Below are positions 46 through 8,282 of a stretch of DNA of 27,265 bases, piece after piece; the first letter of the stretch is position 1; each line of letters opens with the position of its first letter. This stretch comes from a virus: positions 1 through 27,265 of the IMG/VR virus record IMGVR_UViG_3300005613_000341; one strand, written 5' to 3'. The notes under the pieces are model-generated. The model did not search any database. It saw only the letters and a list, made by a program, of their open reading frames with translations, and was not told the origin of the DNA. The position numbers were made by a program, and so were the translations under genes.

Positions 46-130
46 TCGCCTCGCCCTGCCTTGTCTTGTCTTGCCCCGCCATGCCCAGCCGTGCCCTGCC
101 ATGCCTCGCCGAGCCTCGCCCCGCCGCGTC
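46..130. repeat. Degenerate pentanucleotide tandem array
   Basis: Seventeen consecutive 5-bp units run from 46 to 130 on the plus strand. Most fit N[T/C]GCC (for example TCGCC, CTGCC, TTGCC, ATGCC, GTGCC), with a few drifting to NNGTC or NAGCC. On the coding (minus) strand this reads as GGCNN repeats just past the stop codon of the 185-residue RAMP-like gene. Because 5 is not a multiple of 3 the array is open in several frames, which produces spurious short ORFs. The function is unknown; it could be a slippage-derived intergenic element or a protein/RNA-binding array. Confidence 0.8.
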
Positions 131-2865: not shown

Positions 2866-2984
2866 TTCACTCCCTCTCTTCCTCTTGCAAAGCCACCCAC
2901 CCACTTACTCGGCAACAGCACCAAACCAGCACCGAGGACACACAACAAAACGCCACCAATGACCAGACCAGAAATAACATCCAT
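2850..2984 (-). CDS. Small single-pass membrane protein coupled to cysH
   Basis: A 44-residue ORF below the usual length cut-offs. Its ATG (2984-2982) shares one base with the TGA of the cysH-like gene (TGATG), and its tail overlaps the next gene by 16 nt, so it fills the only gap in the operon. Residues 3-24 form one continuous hydrophobic segment (VISGLVIGGVLLCVLGAGLV and a few more), then a basic tail with KWVGGFARGREGVK, giving a predicted N-out/C-in orientation by the positive-inside rule. No family recognised. It could be a membrane anchor or toxin-like/holin-like small protein associated with the type IV-B module, or simply a phage moron. Existence is supported by coupling, hydrophobicity and lack of other coding use. 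Confidence 0.65.
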   Translation of the reverse strand: MDVISGLVIGGVLLCVLGAGLVLLPSKWVGGFARGREGVKCEKS

Positions 2985-3751
2985 CACACCCTCTTAAACT
3001 CCGTGGTAAATCCAGCGCCCGCGAAGACCTGCATTCTTGCCAGCACGTCACCATAATACTCTTGCTCCCACGCGCCGCGACTCATGCCGCGTCCGCGTTC
3101 GTTGCCAATCGCACTGGTTCGCACCCATTGCCGCTCAAAGCGGCCCCCGCCTTGCATCGCGTAATTCGGATGCACTGGCAAATCGAACAACGCTAGGTAA
3201 GCAAACACGTCCGCACAGGTAAACCTGTGAAACGGTGCGAACGAATGCCGTGTCTCAAGACCATAGGTCTTAAACCTGAGCAGCCGCGTTGACGATTCGT
3301 CTGCGCGAACCCCCGACACATGGATACCATACCGCTTCGCTAAATCGCGAAGCACTTGAAACCATCGCACAGGCTTGCCATCGCGAAACCACGATTCGTC
3401 TGAATCTTTGTAGCTGTACGCGATTTCTTCGTAATCGCAATCGAACCGCCTCAGAAAATCATCTCGCACGTCAACGTCATGCGGATTTTCGTTGTCCAAT
3501 TGCCGCACATGAACAACCTTGCACGGATATTTCAACGCTCGAAAAAAATGCAATAAACACACTGAGTCTTTACCCCACGATGTAGCGACATAGTACGGCT
3601 TTGGCCTTCGATGAAACTGCTGAATCGCTTCTTTAACCGATTGGCATCGCCGCAAAAAACCGCTATCCATTGCATGGACAGAATCAGCCTCTGCTTGTTC
3701 CTGCCATAATCGCAAATCATCTTTCGTGTGTCGTTCGCTCGGAATCAACAT
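2984..3751 (-). CDS. cysH: CysH-like PP-loop protein of type IV-B locus
   Basis: A 255-residue protein of the phosphoadenosine-phosphosulfate reductase/PP-loop ATPase superfamily. The nucleotide-binding PP-loop is TSWGKDS (57-63), and a second conserved patch is SGVRADESSTR (146-156). The C-terminal ECGLH-type catalytic cysteine of true PAPS reductases is absent, as no Cys follows C179, so a classical sulfate-reduction role is unlikely. A cysH-like gene is the recognised ancillary gene of type IV-B CRISPR-Cas loci, where its function is unknown. The start ATG overlaps the csf3 stop (ATGTTGA), so it is translationally coupled to the effector genes. Alternative: a DndC-like or sulfurtransferase-type modification enzyme. 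Confidence 0.88.
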   Translation of the reverse strand: MLIPSERHTKDDLRLWQEQAEADSVHAMDSGFLRRCQSVKEAIQQFHRRPKPYYVATSWGKDSVCLLHFFRALKYPCKVVHVRQLDNENPHDVDVRDDFLRRFDCDYEEIAYSYKDSDESWFRDGKPVRWFQVLRDLAKRYGIHVSGVRADESSTRLLRFKTYGLETRHSFAPFHRFTCADVFAYLALFDLPVHPNYAMQGGGRFERQWVRTSAIGNERGRGMSRGAWEQEYYGDVLARMQVFAGAGFTTEFKRV

Positions 3752-4416
3752 GGAACTGCAATCTCCATGTATCTATCGGGATGCCAATACGGTGGGCAAA
3801 ATCCACCGCACCAACGCTTCCAACCGATGAACTTGTGAATTTCTTCGCACCAAGGAAGAACACGCATCAATAACAATCCTTGCTCGCTTGGTGCGAACCA
3901 AGACCAGTCGTGTTCAACTTCCTCAAATTGCCATTCGGCAATTCGGCCATAGCCTTGGCTTCGCTTTTTGCCGATCGAATGCACAGAGTCAAGCAACGAC
4001 TTTAGCGACCGACGCTTACTGCCACCGATGAACCAGCAAATCTTTTCGACGTTGCTGATTTTCAACGGCAATCGATAACTCTTTGTCCAACTGTTGCCAG
4101 TGGCAACAACTAGCCGCTGATCCTCGCGCAACAGACAAGCGTTTTCAACGCTGATCCGTTTTGCAAAATGCTCATGCCTGACGTTCTCAGGTGCAACGAT
4201 TGGAGCGGAACAACGAGGTATTCCGTTGACTCCGCCGAACTCTCCACGCAAGCACGGTAAGTGAATACTGCCGACTGGCGACGCTGGTTCGCCTCGCTGA
4301 ATTGTGCGGGCCTTGCCGTGACGCTGGGCCATCTCAAATTCAAGCAACGAATCAATGTATGGTGCCTCGCCAGCTAACGGGCTGGAAAGCACCGCGGTTA
4401 CTTTCCAATTAGCCAT
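3745..4416 (-). CDS. csf3: Type IV CRISPR Csf3 (Cas5-like)
   Basis: A 223-residue RAMP-superfamily protein matching Csf3, the Cas5 equivalent that caps the 5' end of the guide RNA in type IV complexes. Visible features: a short first beta strand (NWKVTAVLSSPLAG, 3-16), IHLPCLRGEFGG (51-62), the glycine-rich loop SIGKKRSQGYGRIAEW (147-162), and a C-terminal GGFCPPYWHPDRY (204-216) typical of Csf3-like proteins. Its ATG lies 19 nt inside the end of csf2 and its stop overlaps cysH, so csf2-csf3-cysH are tightly coupled. Confidence 0.85.
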   Translation of the reverse strand: MANWKVTAVLSSPLAGEAPYIDSLLEFEMAQRHGKARTIQRGEPASPVGSIHLPCLRGEFGGVNGIPRCSAPIVAPENVRHEHFAKRISVENACLLREDQRLVVATGNSWTKSYRLPLKISNVEKICWFIGGSKRRSLKSLLDSVHSIGKKRSQGYGRIAEWQFEEVEHDWSWFAPSEQGLLLMRVLPWCEEIHKFIGWKRWCGGFCPPYWHPDRYMEIAVPC

Positions 4417-5327
4417 TGAGCAGCCCCGCCCGCTTTCTGTTTGCTTTTTGCAGACTTCTTTTCTTTCGCCGCTGCTGCCTTAGCGAAGCAATCGTTAAGC
4501 CACGCAACCGCACGATCTTTCACCGCGTCCACATGCTCCACGTATGCATCGACGATTGCGTCATCGTCTTTGCAATCGAGCAGAGACAACTGCAATCGAC
4601 CATGACCAAGCCGAGCATTGCCGCCAATCGTTCCGCCGCTGGATTGCCACAATCGCAAGGACAACAACAGGCAACCAATCTCTAATTCGTTGACGTGCTT
4701 CAAAACAAATCCGTGATGGAACAACGCTCCTCGAGTGACTGCTTGGCCGCTGTAAATCATGAGGTTGGATTGCTCCATCAAATCATCACGCTCTTTTGCG
4801 AGTCCCGTTTTTGTTCCGTCGCCTCGCGTGTATTGGTACGCGCTCAAGAATCGCTCGCTGCTCAACAGTCGCTTGGTTGGCATGTAGCCCAAGGTCTTTT
4901 TGAGGCTGTCGCGGTTTTCTTCGCATACAAGAGTACCACGCCAAACGTCCATTGATCCGGCTAAGATCTGATCTTGCAACGACCCACCGCACAACCGAAG
5001 CATCGGCCACAGTTCGTGCATCTCCGCGATGCGTCGCGTGTTTTCATGTGCGTTGCTCATGGTAAGGTTGCCACCATGCAAAAGAAAATTCAATTGCAGC
5101 AACGACAACTGACCCTTGAGACCGTAACGATCAATCAACCACATTGCCATCGGCTCGCGAACGCATCGATGTCTTAATGCGTTGCCGCTAAGGAATGGAA
5201 TCATCATCACACCACGCTCGGTATGCACCGGCTCGCGTGCGACGATTCCTTCGTTGCCCGCTGTTCCGCTCATGTGCGTGATTGGCGAAACTGCTTCGCT
5301 TAAACATTGGATTGTGTATGTCTTCAT
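4398..5327 (-). CDS. csf2: Type IV CRISPR Csf2 (Cas7-like backbone)
   Basis: A 309-residue protein. The start is ATG 5327, overlapping the cas11 stop as TAATG; the longer reading to 5414 lies wholly in cas11. It matches Csf2, the Cas7-type subunit that polymerises along the RNA to form the helical backbone. Seen in the sequence: THMSGTAGNEGIVAREPVHT (17-36), IPFLSGNALRHR (43-54), and the glycine-rich loop SGGTIGGNARLGHGRLQL (230-247). The last 30 residues form a Lys/Ala-rich tail (about 280-303), an unusual basic extension that could contact nucleic acid. Confidence 0.88.
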   Translation of the reverse strand: MKTYTIQCLSEAVSPITHMSGTAGNEGIVAREPVHTERGVMMIPFLSGNALRHRCVREPMAMWLIDRYGLKGQLSLLQLNFLLHGGNLTMSNAHENTRRIAEMHELWPMLRLCGGSLQDQILAGSMDVWRGTLVCEENRDSLKKTLGYMPTKRLLSSERFLSAYQYTRGDGTKTGLAKERDDLMEQSNLMIYSGQAVTRGALFHHGFVLKHVNELEIGCLLLSLRLWQSSGGTIGGNARLGHGRLQLSLLDCKDDDAIVDAYVEHVDAVKDRAVAWLNDCFAKAAAAKEKKSAKSKQKAGGAAQWLIGK

Positions 5328-5788
5328 TAGCTGCGAACTCCCATGTTGTCCTTGTGAGCGCGACGAGCGTAAACCAAAACTGGAATCAGATGTGTAACCA
5401 AATACTGCAACCAATCCTGTCGCTCTTGCTCTGGCAATCGCTGTAAATCATCGATTGCATCGGTCAATCGTTCGCACGCTACCGCCTTGGCAGGATCGGC
5501 TTTGATGGACTCAAGCACATGCTGCACGAACAAATCCAAGTCACCACTGACCGTCTTGGCGTATCCGCTTTCAATCGCTGCCGCGATCTTGTCCCACATG
5601 GTCATTCGGTCTAAAGATTCGCCAAACACGCTGGGCAGTGAAGCACAAAACTGAATCGCCAAACCTTTGGCAACTTCCGCATACCACTCAGGCTTTTCCG
5701 CTTGCGGATCAATCAAAGAGGCTAGGCGTTGCCGCAACTGCTCTGTGCTTAGGCTTTCGTTCGCGCTGGGTAACTGCTGGGTAGACAT
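5327..5788 (-). CDS. cas11: Type IV-B small subunit (Cas11-like)
   Basis: A 153-residue, predicted all-helical, mildly acidic protein in the position of the small subunit between csf1 and csf2. The start ATG at 5788 has AAAGAGGA nine bases upstream, a strong ribosome binding site, although it lies 80 nt inside csf1. Small subunits diverge too fast for motif recognition, so the call rests on helical content, length and locus position. In known complexes Cas11 copies form the inner belly of the crescent and contact the displaced strand. Confidence 0.7.
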   Translation of the reverse strand: MSTQQLPSANESLSTEQLRQRLASLIDPQAEKPEWYAEVAKGLAIQFCASLPSVFGESLDRMTMWDKIAAAIESGYAKTVSGDLDLFVQHVLESIKADPAKAVACERLTDAIDDLQRLPEQERQDWLQYLVTHLIPVLVYARRAHKDNMGVRS

Positions 5789-6509
5789 TCAGGCATTCCT
5801 CTTTGGCTGGACACAACCAAACCGCCAATCGCGTGAGCGGTTCTGAAAAACAATCTAGCCACGCTGCTAGTACATGATCCGATTCGTAATGCTCGATGAT
5901 TCGCATTTGCGTCTGCGTGCTCATCGGCTCTTTCATCGCTGGCTTACCTGTGGCTGCCGCGATCTGCTTACACAATTGCAGCCGCTCAATCAATTCTTGC
6001 GGCTGGTACGTGATGGCTTCGCCCTCCAACGTCACCGTGATTGTCTCTCGACTGTGATTAACGACTGCACGATAGATGAGATGCTTTTGGCCGCTGTCAC
6101 TAATGCAAACTACAAACGGTGTTGCCGGGGGATTGATGCACGCATCAAGTAATTGCACGCGATGCGATTTTGTACATGCGCTGCGTTCGGTTGCTGTGAT
6201 AATCCATGAATACCCACGCACTTTTTGCCCGTCGCGAGAATCCCCGTCTATCTGTGTTATGTTGATTTTCTCTTGCATTGCATCGACGCACCCAACGCAA
6301 ACCCAATTGGATAAGGTCACTGTATCCAAGCCGGTAAACGACGATTTAACCACGGCTTTTGCCGAGTGCGTCTGATCGCATTGACCACCGCAATAGAAGC
6401 ACGTCTCATCTCCTTGCGGCTCATACCGTGCGAAGAGTTGCGGCGCTGTCAAAGGCCGATGAACAAAATGTTGTACCGGAGTTGCCGGTCTAGTGTTTTG
6501 TGGAATCAT
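5709..6509 (-). CDS. csf1: Type IV CRISPR Csf1 (Cas8-like large subunit, zinc finger)
   Basis: A 266-residue protein with a four-cysteine zinc-binding site in the N-terminal third: C37-x2-C40 and C71-x2-C74, with an additional C44. This arrangement at the head of a cas11-csf2-csf3 cluster is the signature of Csf1, the reduced Cas8-type subunit of type IV complexes. The rest has no recognisable motif. The ATG at 6509 follows ACAGGTCTGC, a modest ribosome binding site. The last 80 nt overlap the start of cas11. No DinG helicase or Cas6 gene is nearby, which with cysH points to subtype IV-B. Confidence 0.82.
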   Translation of the reverse strand: MIPQNTRPATPVQHFVHRPLTAPQLFARYEPQGDETCFYCGGQCDQTHSAKAVVKSSFTGLDTVTLSNWVCVGCVDAMQEKINITQIDGDSRDGQKVRGYSWIITATERSACTKSHRVQLLDACINPPATPFVVCISDSGQKHLIYRAVVNHSRETITVTLEGEAITYQPQELIERLQLCKQIAAATGKPAMKEPMSTQTQMRIIEHYESDHVLAAWLDCFSEPLTRLAVWLCPAKEECLNVYPAVTQRERKPKHRAVAATPSLFD

Positions 6510-6543
6510 GCAGACCTGTTAGTGTTCCGGCTTGCGACCTGAC

Positions 6544-6801
6544 TTAAATCTCAACCAGCGTTGAGACATTCTGCCCGTGCCGACCACGCAACACGATCAC
6601 GCAATCTGACGGTATCTCGTCCGCAAGCCGTAATTCTTCGGCCATCGCTTCCTGCGTCATCTCGCTGCCGCGAACACGATCACAAGCCGCTTCGATGTCT
6701 TCGCACTTCACAAATCCATCGGTACGCACTTCTAGCTCGTAGTAGTCCCACGATCCGTTTATCGGGCACCGTCCGTGGACGGTTGTTGTATGCACAATCA
6801 T
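6544..6801 (-). CDS. Small hypothetical protein between DpdA-like and csf1 (85 aa)
   Basis: The ATG at 6801 is preceded by GGTGGGAGAG; the longer TTG frame to 6864 runs back into the previous gene and is not favoured. The product starts MIVHTTTVHGRCPINGSWDY and ends GRHGQNVSTLVEI, with a helical middle. It looks like a compact alpha/beta protein of a phage family I recognise only by appearance. It lies 40 nt after the DpdA-like gene and 34 nt before csf1. Function unknown; it could belong to either neighbour. Confidence 0.7.
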   Translation of the reverse strand: MIVHTTTVHGRCPINGSWDYYELEVRTDGFVKCEDIEAACDRVRGSEMTQEAMAEELRLADEIPSDCVIVLRGRHGQNVSTLVEI

Positions 6802-6841
6802 GTTCTCTCCCACCTCTGCATTGTTTCGGGTGGCAATCCAT

Positions 6842-7483
6842 TCATGCCGCTTCCTCGCTGTCAAATAGTGTTGGTTCCGGTTCTCCGCTGATCGCTCTCG
6901 CGATCTTGTCTAGCATGTGGTCGTACTGACCAACGCCGTTTCCGTCGCATGTGTCGCATCCAAGTGATGCGTAAGCTTCGTAACGTCGGGGCGTGTTGAC
7001 TCGCCCGACGTGTATTCTTATGTCGCCCAATGCCTTGGCCGTTTTCACGATGTCATACGCAGCTGCCGAATCCTTGAACCGATCCGTTCCGCCGATGAAC
7101 ATCCATTTTCCAAACATCGCGTTCCAATCAATTCGCCTGTCTTCGTGCCCGTCTTGCATGACGTATGCCCATTGTCGCGTGTATGGGTGTGTTCTCGCGT
7201 CCTTCGTGACGTGGAAATACAAGTCATCCGTTCTAAGTGCGTTCCCGACGATGTCGGGAATTGCGACGAACAGACACTGATCTTTGTACGGTTCGTGTTT
7301 CTTCAACACCCGAAACCATGCGTCACGATCCAACCCGCTATATGCTCCGTTGTCGATCGCAAACACGCCGCCCCAATTTTTGTAATTGGTCAACGGGGTA
7401 CACAATTGGCCCTCAACCAAACTGGGGTGCAATTCTCGCTTTCGCTCAACGTCTTTCGGTGATTTGTCGATCAGGAATCGCAT
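6842..7483 (-). CDS. dpdA: DpdA/TGT-like 7-deazaguanine transglycosylase
   Basis: A 213-residue protein resembling phage DpdA-family enzymes, relatives of tRNA-guanine transglycosylase that insert 7-deazaguanine bases into DNA. Markers: FAIDNGAYSG (41-50) with Asp44, IPDIVG (75-80), FIGGTDRFK (129-137), HVGRVNTPRR (158-167) and LGCDTCDGNG (174-183), where Asp177 or Asp180 fits the nucleophile region. ATG 7483 is chosen over an upstream TTG. At this length it matches the short phage forms rather than full-length TGT. No preQ0 synthesis genes (folE, queD, queE, queC) are in the window, so the substrate would come from elsewhere in the genome or the host. The family call is from memory of motifs, so the DNA versus RNA substrate is an inference. 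Confidence 0.72.
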   Translation of the reverse strand: MRFLIDKSPKDVERKRELHPSLVEGQLCTPLTNYKNWGGVFAIDNGAYSGLDRDAWFRVLKKHEPYKDQCLFVAIPDIVGNALRTDDLYFHVTKDARTHPYTRQWAYVMQDGHEDRRIDWNAMFGKWMFIGGTDRFKDSAAAYDIVKTAKALGDIRIHVGRVNTPRRYEAYASLGCDTCDGNGVGQYDHMLDKIARAISGEPEPTLFDSEEAA

Positions 7484-8042: not shown

Positions 8043-8282
8043 CTAGAACAACACGCCCTGGGCCAGTCTCTGTTGTGAAATCTCGACGTATTCGGGATTC
8101 ACCTCGATCCCGATGAAACGCCGTCCGTTGTCTTTCGCCATCCTCGCGGTTGTGCCTGACCCGCTAAACGGGTCCAACACCACATCGCCTTCGTTACTCC
8201 AACTCACAATATGATGAACCGCTGGCAAAAAATACGGCGGATCGGTTATCACTGCTCCGATGTCATGCGAGAGCCGCAGCAC
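8043..8282 (-). pseudogene. DNA methyltransferase remnant (DPPY + motif I, no TRD)
   Basis: The 79-residue frame keeps AVITDPPYF (motif IV, catalytic), then jumps directly to NEGDVVLDPFSGSGTT (motif I, AdoMet binding) and an intact-looking end, RRFIGIEVNPEYVEISQQRL. In beta-class N6-adenine or N4-cytosine methyltransferases these two blocks are separated by a target-recognition region of 100 or more residues and preceded by more N-terminal sequence; both are missing. There is only a GTG start, without a ribosome binding site, exactly where the plus-strand zinc-ribbon frame begins. I read it as a deletion remnant. A functional mini-protein is possible but unlikely. Confidence 0.7.

Follow-up and report, generated by a model that had tools for sequence, protein, structure and literature searches.

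A tailed phage carries, immediately ahead of a type IV-B CRISPR operon, two small genes that form a conserved unit. The first, dpdL, encodes a 213-aa protein best interpreted as a shortened relative of DpdA, the DNA-guanine transglycosylase; the second, queF-L, encodes an 85-aa protein that sequence profiles and a structure model identify as a homologue of archaeosine synthase QueF-Like. The pair probably modifies DNA and functions separately from the csf genes beside it. This reading provides a testable function for phrog_15826, so far listed as of unknown function, and for a small gene that lacks Pfam matches, and it points to a cassette of two genes that could place a deazaguanine base in DNA, drawing on a precursor made by the host or imported. 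It likewise does away with an attractive though weak connection of DNA modification with type IV-B CRISPR systems.

Gene layout of the window

The window, which denotes here the whole stretch of DNA analyzed, is an IMG/VR virus record of 27,265 bases that may be a fragment of a phage genome; it contains terminase, portal, protease, major head and tape-measure genes, and is a tailed phage. Its minus strand carries, in this order, dpdL, the 85-aa gene, csf1, cas11, csf2, csf3 and a CysH-like gene (Table 1). The genes are co-directional, with gaps of 40 bases between dpdL and the 85-aa gene and of 34 bases between the latter and csf1, and the resulting total of 74 bases agrees with the figure of about 75 given in the first-pass annotation. 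The dpdL/queF-L pair and the csf operon may lie on one shared transcript; a promoter scan returned none, fewer than in shuffled sequences. The start methionine of DpdL is the same in the L001 and L002 homologues, and an alternative TTG start upstream would yield a protein of 221 aa. As had been reported from the sequence, genes for preQ0 synthesis are absent from the window: profiles for QueC, QueD (PTPS), FolE and QueF had no match, and neither had the Vut_1 profile, a result that holds for this 27-kb record, possibly a fragment, and does not imply absence from the phage as a whole.

Table 1. Features of the dpdL/queF-L pair and the adjoining csf operon, in window coordinates
Feature	Position	Strand	Basis
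dpdL, putative 213-aa short DpdA/TGT-like transglycosylase	6842..7483	-	profile, model, conserved aspartates, context
queF-L, 85-aa T-fold protein, archaeosine synthase QueF-Like homologue	6544..6801	-	profile, model
csf1 (type IV Cas8-like)	5709..6509	-	profile; neighbour of the pair, probably a separate module
cas11 (type IV small subunit)	5327..5788	-	profile
csf2 (type IV Cas7)	4398..5327	-	profile
csf3 (type IV Cas5)	3745..4416	-	profile
CysH-like (PAPS reductase domain), type IV-B accessory gene	2984..3751	-	profile

Two further features were observed in the record. A 79-aa methyltransferase piece, probably a DNA methyltransferase remnant, lies upstream of dpdL (8043-8282, minus strand), with DPPY running directly into the C-terminal N6_N4_Mtase part (profile positions 173-220 of 221), and short G/C-rich tandem repeats occur at window positions 72-120, near the record end.

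DpdL as a compact relative of DpdA

The motifs from which the first-pass annotation had read a DpdA-like enzyme (DNGAYSG, GRVN and GCDTCDG) are all found in the 213-aa protein, and that identity is sustained by a match to a phage DpdA profile, a barrel model, invariant aspartates and the presence of que neighbours. DpdL matches phrog_15826 with an E-value of 5.5e-27, and pattern scans for its relatives recovered 68 IMG/VR loci, plus one locus in a Novosphingobium genome; the phrog match and the 68 related viral loci together make the observation more than chance. Searches with tblastn further retrieved 24 phage records, several of them annotated 'DpdA-like tRNA-guanine transglycosylase', and 45 plasmid records. 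Ten residues do not vary across 41 of 41 aligned sequences: D44, N45, G46, D77, Q110, G132, H158, R161, D180 and G181. They cover the DNG and DG motifs as well as the H and R of HVGR, and D44, D77, Q110, H158, R161 and D180 are still invariant in a 12-row alignment with distant plasmid members.

In profile-to-profile comparison (hhalign), DpdL aligns with a phage DpdA profile built from 8 proteins, several of which are encoded next to annotated folE, queD or queC genes, at E 9.4e-7 and probability 91; the unrelated csf2 profile, used as a control, gave E 0.47. The alignment places D44 of DpdL on D63 of DpdA, D180 on D206 and H158 at H187, and the catalytic roles of the two aspartates are known from TGT. 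DpdL matched no Pfam family at E ≤ 1, the TGT family (PF01702) included, and PF01702 had no match anywhere in the record; the DpdA homologue that R29Z carries (L094) likewise went unmatched in Pfam at E ≤ 0.01. The canonical DpdA profile did not match the window's DpdL, a sequence search of the PDB gave no clear match (7ui4 at E 0.63, amid noise), and hhalign against the single Vibrio phage nt-1 DpdA2 sequence gave E 0.52.

The QueF-L partner and the predicted product

The gene linking dpdL to csf1 had been described as unknown, a label that no longer fits, given that its product matches QueF-Like best in the whole PDB by both profile and model and is the actual partner of the transglycosylase. 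Searched on its own, the sequence matched nothing in Pfam, and tblastn found no relative in phages. A whole-PDB profile search with 8 relatives ranked QueF-Like first (E 2.5e-6), and with 13 relatives the QueF-Like match reached E 1e-7, followed by GTP cyclohydrolase I, of the same T-fold, at E-values of at least 0.016. The structure model (pLDDT 92.4) has a beta-beta-alpha-alpha-beta-beta arrangement; its best 13 Foldseek hits are all QueF-Like, and VIA superimposes it on QueF-Like with Z 12.6 and 1.6 Å over 82 of 85 residues, and on QueF reductase with Z 9.2. In the alignment, C12 and D19 correspond to C21 and D28 of Pyrobaculum calidifontis QueF-Like (5jyx), whose Cys21 has been identified as the cysteine that forms the thioimide (PMC5485725). 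This cysteine is kept in 13 of 13 relatives, and 10 of the 13, like the protein of the window, also have the general-acid aspartate. The other three (L081, L082, L083) carry Asn in its place, and their chemistry may differ.

Relatives of the 85-aa protein, sought within the loci collected, are present in 14 other contigs, 13 of which have dpdL immediately upstream. Eight of these contigs came from looking near dpdL, and the fair sample is therefore the six new contigs, among which dpdL is immediately upstream in five; the sixth (L080) carries a DpdA homologue (profile E 3.1e-16) and a radical-SAM gene. The two genes are thus a conserved unit. In three records (G025, G027, G047) a transporter gene follows the pair, which suggests a salvage version of the pathway. 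For phages that encode QueF-L and DpdA, it had already been noted that their hosts cannot synthesize preQ0 and yet possess the YhhQ transporter (PMC6884629). The parts are of known kinds, and the pairing of a short DpdA with QueF-L appears undescribed, no account of a compact transglycosylase and a mini QueF-L as a unit having been found in the open-access literature searched.

In the proposed mechanism, the pair makes up a minimal cassette for 7-deazaguanine modification of DNA. Its preQ0 would be supplied by the host or by uptake, and DpdL would exchange guanine in phage DNA for preQ0 through the aspartate mechanism of TGT, as its fold, its aspartates and its context suggest. The QueF-L cysteine would then attack the nitrile of DNA-bound preQ0. 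Because QueF-L has no recognizable NADPH motif, the resulting thioimide would most likely be resolved by ammonium to yield 2'-deoxyarchaeosine (dG+), as inferred from P. calidifontis QueF-L, with preQ1 as the second choice. By analogy with other deazaguanine phages, in which the modification guards DNA against restriction enzymes (PMC6884629), restriction evasion is the default reading, and the modified base would shield the phage DNA. The same source reports the DNA of Mycobacterium phage Orion, which has a DpdA gene, to be unmodified.

The same pair might instead yield DNA carrying dPreQ1, if the small protein reduced preQ0 to preQ1, an outcome that we consider unlikely. The product of the window pair is uncertain in this respect because Streptococcus phage Dp-1 encodes a QueF-L lookalike and yet has dPreQ1 and no dG+ in its DNA (PMC6884629). 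The 85-aa profile also aligns with a phiSM protein annotated as QueF (E 2.2e-5), but the 85-aa protein is nearer, in both structure and sequence, to QueF-Like than to the QueF reductase, as the Z scores given above indicate. Nothing in the aligned part of the 85-aa protein corresponds to the phiSM stretch ELKSLKYY, which we take to be the NADPH motif, and the region of QueF that holds this motif is thus not conserved there. As the product, dG+ is preferred over dPreQ1.

Neighbourhoods, substrate and fold of DpdL

Whole-record counts were made on 51 of 72 records, consisting of 49 with dpdL (the window included), some of which are related to one another, and two with csf only (L005 and L074); the remaining 21 were near-duplicates, short pieces or L004. 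Among the 49 dpdL records, QueC occurs in 9, PTPS/QueD in 10, the Vut_1 transporter family in 7 and FolE in 3, and at least one of these is present in 21 of the 49 and in neither csf-only record. A QueC, QueD or Vut_1 (queuosine-precursor transporter) gene lies within 600 bases of dpdL in 18 of the 49, whereas in 23 the families covered, which included QueC, QueD, Vut_1 and FolE, turned up no deazaguanine partner. Weak matches to PF14489 (QueF) in three records overlap the FolE matches there and were set aside uncounted as T-fold cross-hits.

The canonical DpdA profile matches only 3 of the 51 records, and on a larger scale a tblastn match to the DpdA of phage phiG7 was obtained in only 230 of 50,697 phage records. 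Record G016 (L020, contig positions about 3963-6644) has QueD, DpdL, a radical-SAM gene at the position of QueE, QueC and FolE in a row. Since the canonical DpdA profile has no match there, no candidate other than the short enzyme was seen, which suggests that DpdL can serve as the sole transglycosylase of a full pathway and makes G016 the best system in which to test it. In Vibrio phage R29Z, an intact dpdL is clustered with QueD, FolE and a DpdA homologue.

Several dpdL homologues show other arrangements. In Escherichia phage phiG7 (L004, 13244-13836), which also has a canonical DpdA, the homologue is split into two overlapping frames beside the DNA polymerase gene, as a frameshift, a pseudogene or a programmed shift might each explain, and in SHIN8 it is likewise in two pieces. 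On a Streptomyces plasmid the homologue adjoins a VUT (queuosine salvage) gene, and on Paraburkholderia and Burkholderia plasmids homologues lie near genes of the PAPS-reductase family (plasmid loci L099, 4405-5573; L100, 4806-7509; L102, 2533-5642). A tie between DpdL and the latter genes was rejected: a comparison of the window's CysH-like protein with the plasmid stretches gave one match, at E 0.18, with no real similarity.

A pair acting on RNA, be it tRNA or small RNAs bound by the Csf complex, instead of on DNA is quite improbable, even if TGT acts on tRNA, P. calidifontis QueF-Like acts on preQ0-tRNA (PMC5485725) and a type IV-B complex binds heterogeneous small RNAs (PMC8175902). The DpdL family is spread over phages and plasmids, and csf genes are absent from the other dpdL records tested. 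The zinc site of tRNA-type TGT consists of a cluster of cysteines plus a histidine, and the 41 DpdL rows contain no invariant Cys column (at best 35 of 41) and DpdL no CxCxxC. A protein of 213 aa would leave no room for the C-terminal part of TGT, which binds zinc and RNA. DpdL is also closer to phage DpdA than to E. coli TGT, with which it aligns only around DNG/DSG at E 0.045, although this sets a profile against a single sequence and is an uneven contest.

The AlphaFold (AF2) model of DpdL is a barrel with pLDDT 93.4. VIA places TGT first (Z 13.0), with pyruvate kinase at Z 12.8 and DpdA (7ui4) at Z 12.7, and the Foldseek list is headed by transaldolases; with unrelated barrels scoring level with TGT and DpdA, the fold supports kinship to these enzymes and does not prove it. 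The same scores would suit a different small TIM-barrel enzyme with no part in guanine exchange, a reading rendered very unlikely by the recurrence of queC, queD, transporter and queF-L neighbours and by the DpdA profile match.

The adjoining type IV-B operon

The csf1, cas11, csf2, csf3 and CysH-like genes were recognized with profiles from PADLOC, NCBIfam and Pfam, with strong PADLOC matches and NCBIfam scores below their cut-offs, and this gene set is that of a type IV-B operon; no CRISPR repeat array was found within the 27-kb record. Relatives of the window's csf genes are present in three records: G004 (L005; csf2 83% identical), G050 (L074; 74%) and G057 (L111; csf3 42%). The G004 contig is probably complete, its ends overlapping and being nearly identical, and G057 has the full csf1-cas11-csf2-csf3-CysH order, in a further type IV-B operon (L111, 1-4461) of the 58-kb virus record IMGVR_UViG_2671180531_000003. 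Searches for csf2 yielded nothing in genome contigs, 3 distant archaeal records among plasmids and 1 distant record among phages. Repetitive-looking translated stretches were seen in two of the csf-bearing relatives (L074, about 214-1161; L005, 1-100).

The first-pass annotation had suggested testing whether the order of dpdA, the 85-aa gene and csf1 is conserved, and had raised self/non-self marking for the type IV-B complex. The survey of relatives supports neither. The DpdL profile, which did match dpdL-bearing records in a separate search, had no match in any of the three csf relatives over their whole records, of which G057 ends at csf1, with the upstream neighbour beyond the record. Conversely, type IV Cas7 was found in none of the 48 other dpdL records or of 13 further ones (including 7 of the 45 dpdL-bearing plasmids), that is, in 0 of 61. 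On these counts a conserved csf neighbour relation was rejected: it is absent from all relatives examined, which the first-pass annotation had itself named as a refuting outcome, and the adjacency of dpdL and csf has been seen in one phage only. The neighbourhood looks accidental, with the csf operon a separate module that landed alongside.

The close, co-directional spacing of the genes and the suggestion that the CysH-like accessory of type IV-B is a nucleic-acid modifier (PMC8175902) would suit a deazaguanine that serves as a self label on phage DNA, with the phage's own complex sparing labelled DNA or hitting only unmarked DNA, but the counts, in which one of the csf relatives is a contig with overlapping ends, make this highly improbable. 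Equally remote is a single system in which DpdL and QueF-L introduce archaeosine-like bases into phage DNA, or into Csf-bound RNA, and the Csf/CysH complex uses their presence or absence to distinguish phage from other nucleic acid; no paper tying DpdA to type IV-B was found in the open-access literature searched.

Comparison with known systems

The closest counterpart of DpdL is the DpdA of 7-deazaguanine phages such as 9g and CAjan (7ui4, 'DNA preQ0 insertase DpdA'), with which it shares the D(S/N)G and DS/DG aspartates, a conserved histidine between them, que neighbours and, by its model, probably a TIM barrel. DpdL is, however, much shorter, at 213 aa against 306 in phiG7 and 436 in 7ui4, and in phiG7 its profile matched only the split dpdL homologue and not the phage's DpdA. 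The 'DpdA-like tRNA-guanine transglycosylase' of Mycobacterium and Arthrobacter phages (for example Phegasus gp54 and Sonali gp81) is a direct homologue of DpdL, with 32-35% identity, whose function there is an annotation. QueF-L shares with the QueF-Like of P. calidifontis (5jyx, 5k0p; about 100 aa) the fold, the catalytic Cys and Asp and the lack of an NADPH motif, but it is phage-borne, 85 aa long and about 21% identical, and it presumably acts on DNA, whereas the archaeal enzyme acts on preQ0-tRNA. Lastly, the type IV-B operon resembles those of the Mycobacterium sp. JS623 plasmid and of Fuxivirus, which likewise combine csf1-cas11-csf2-csf3 with a CysH-like gene and show no array, and it differs from them in lying in a tailed-phage record with a deazaguanine cassette alongside.
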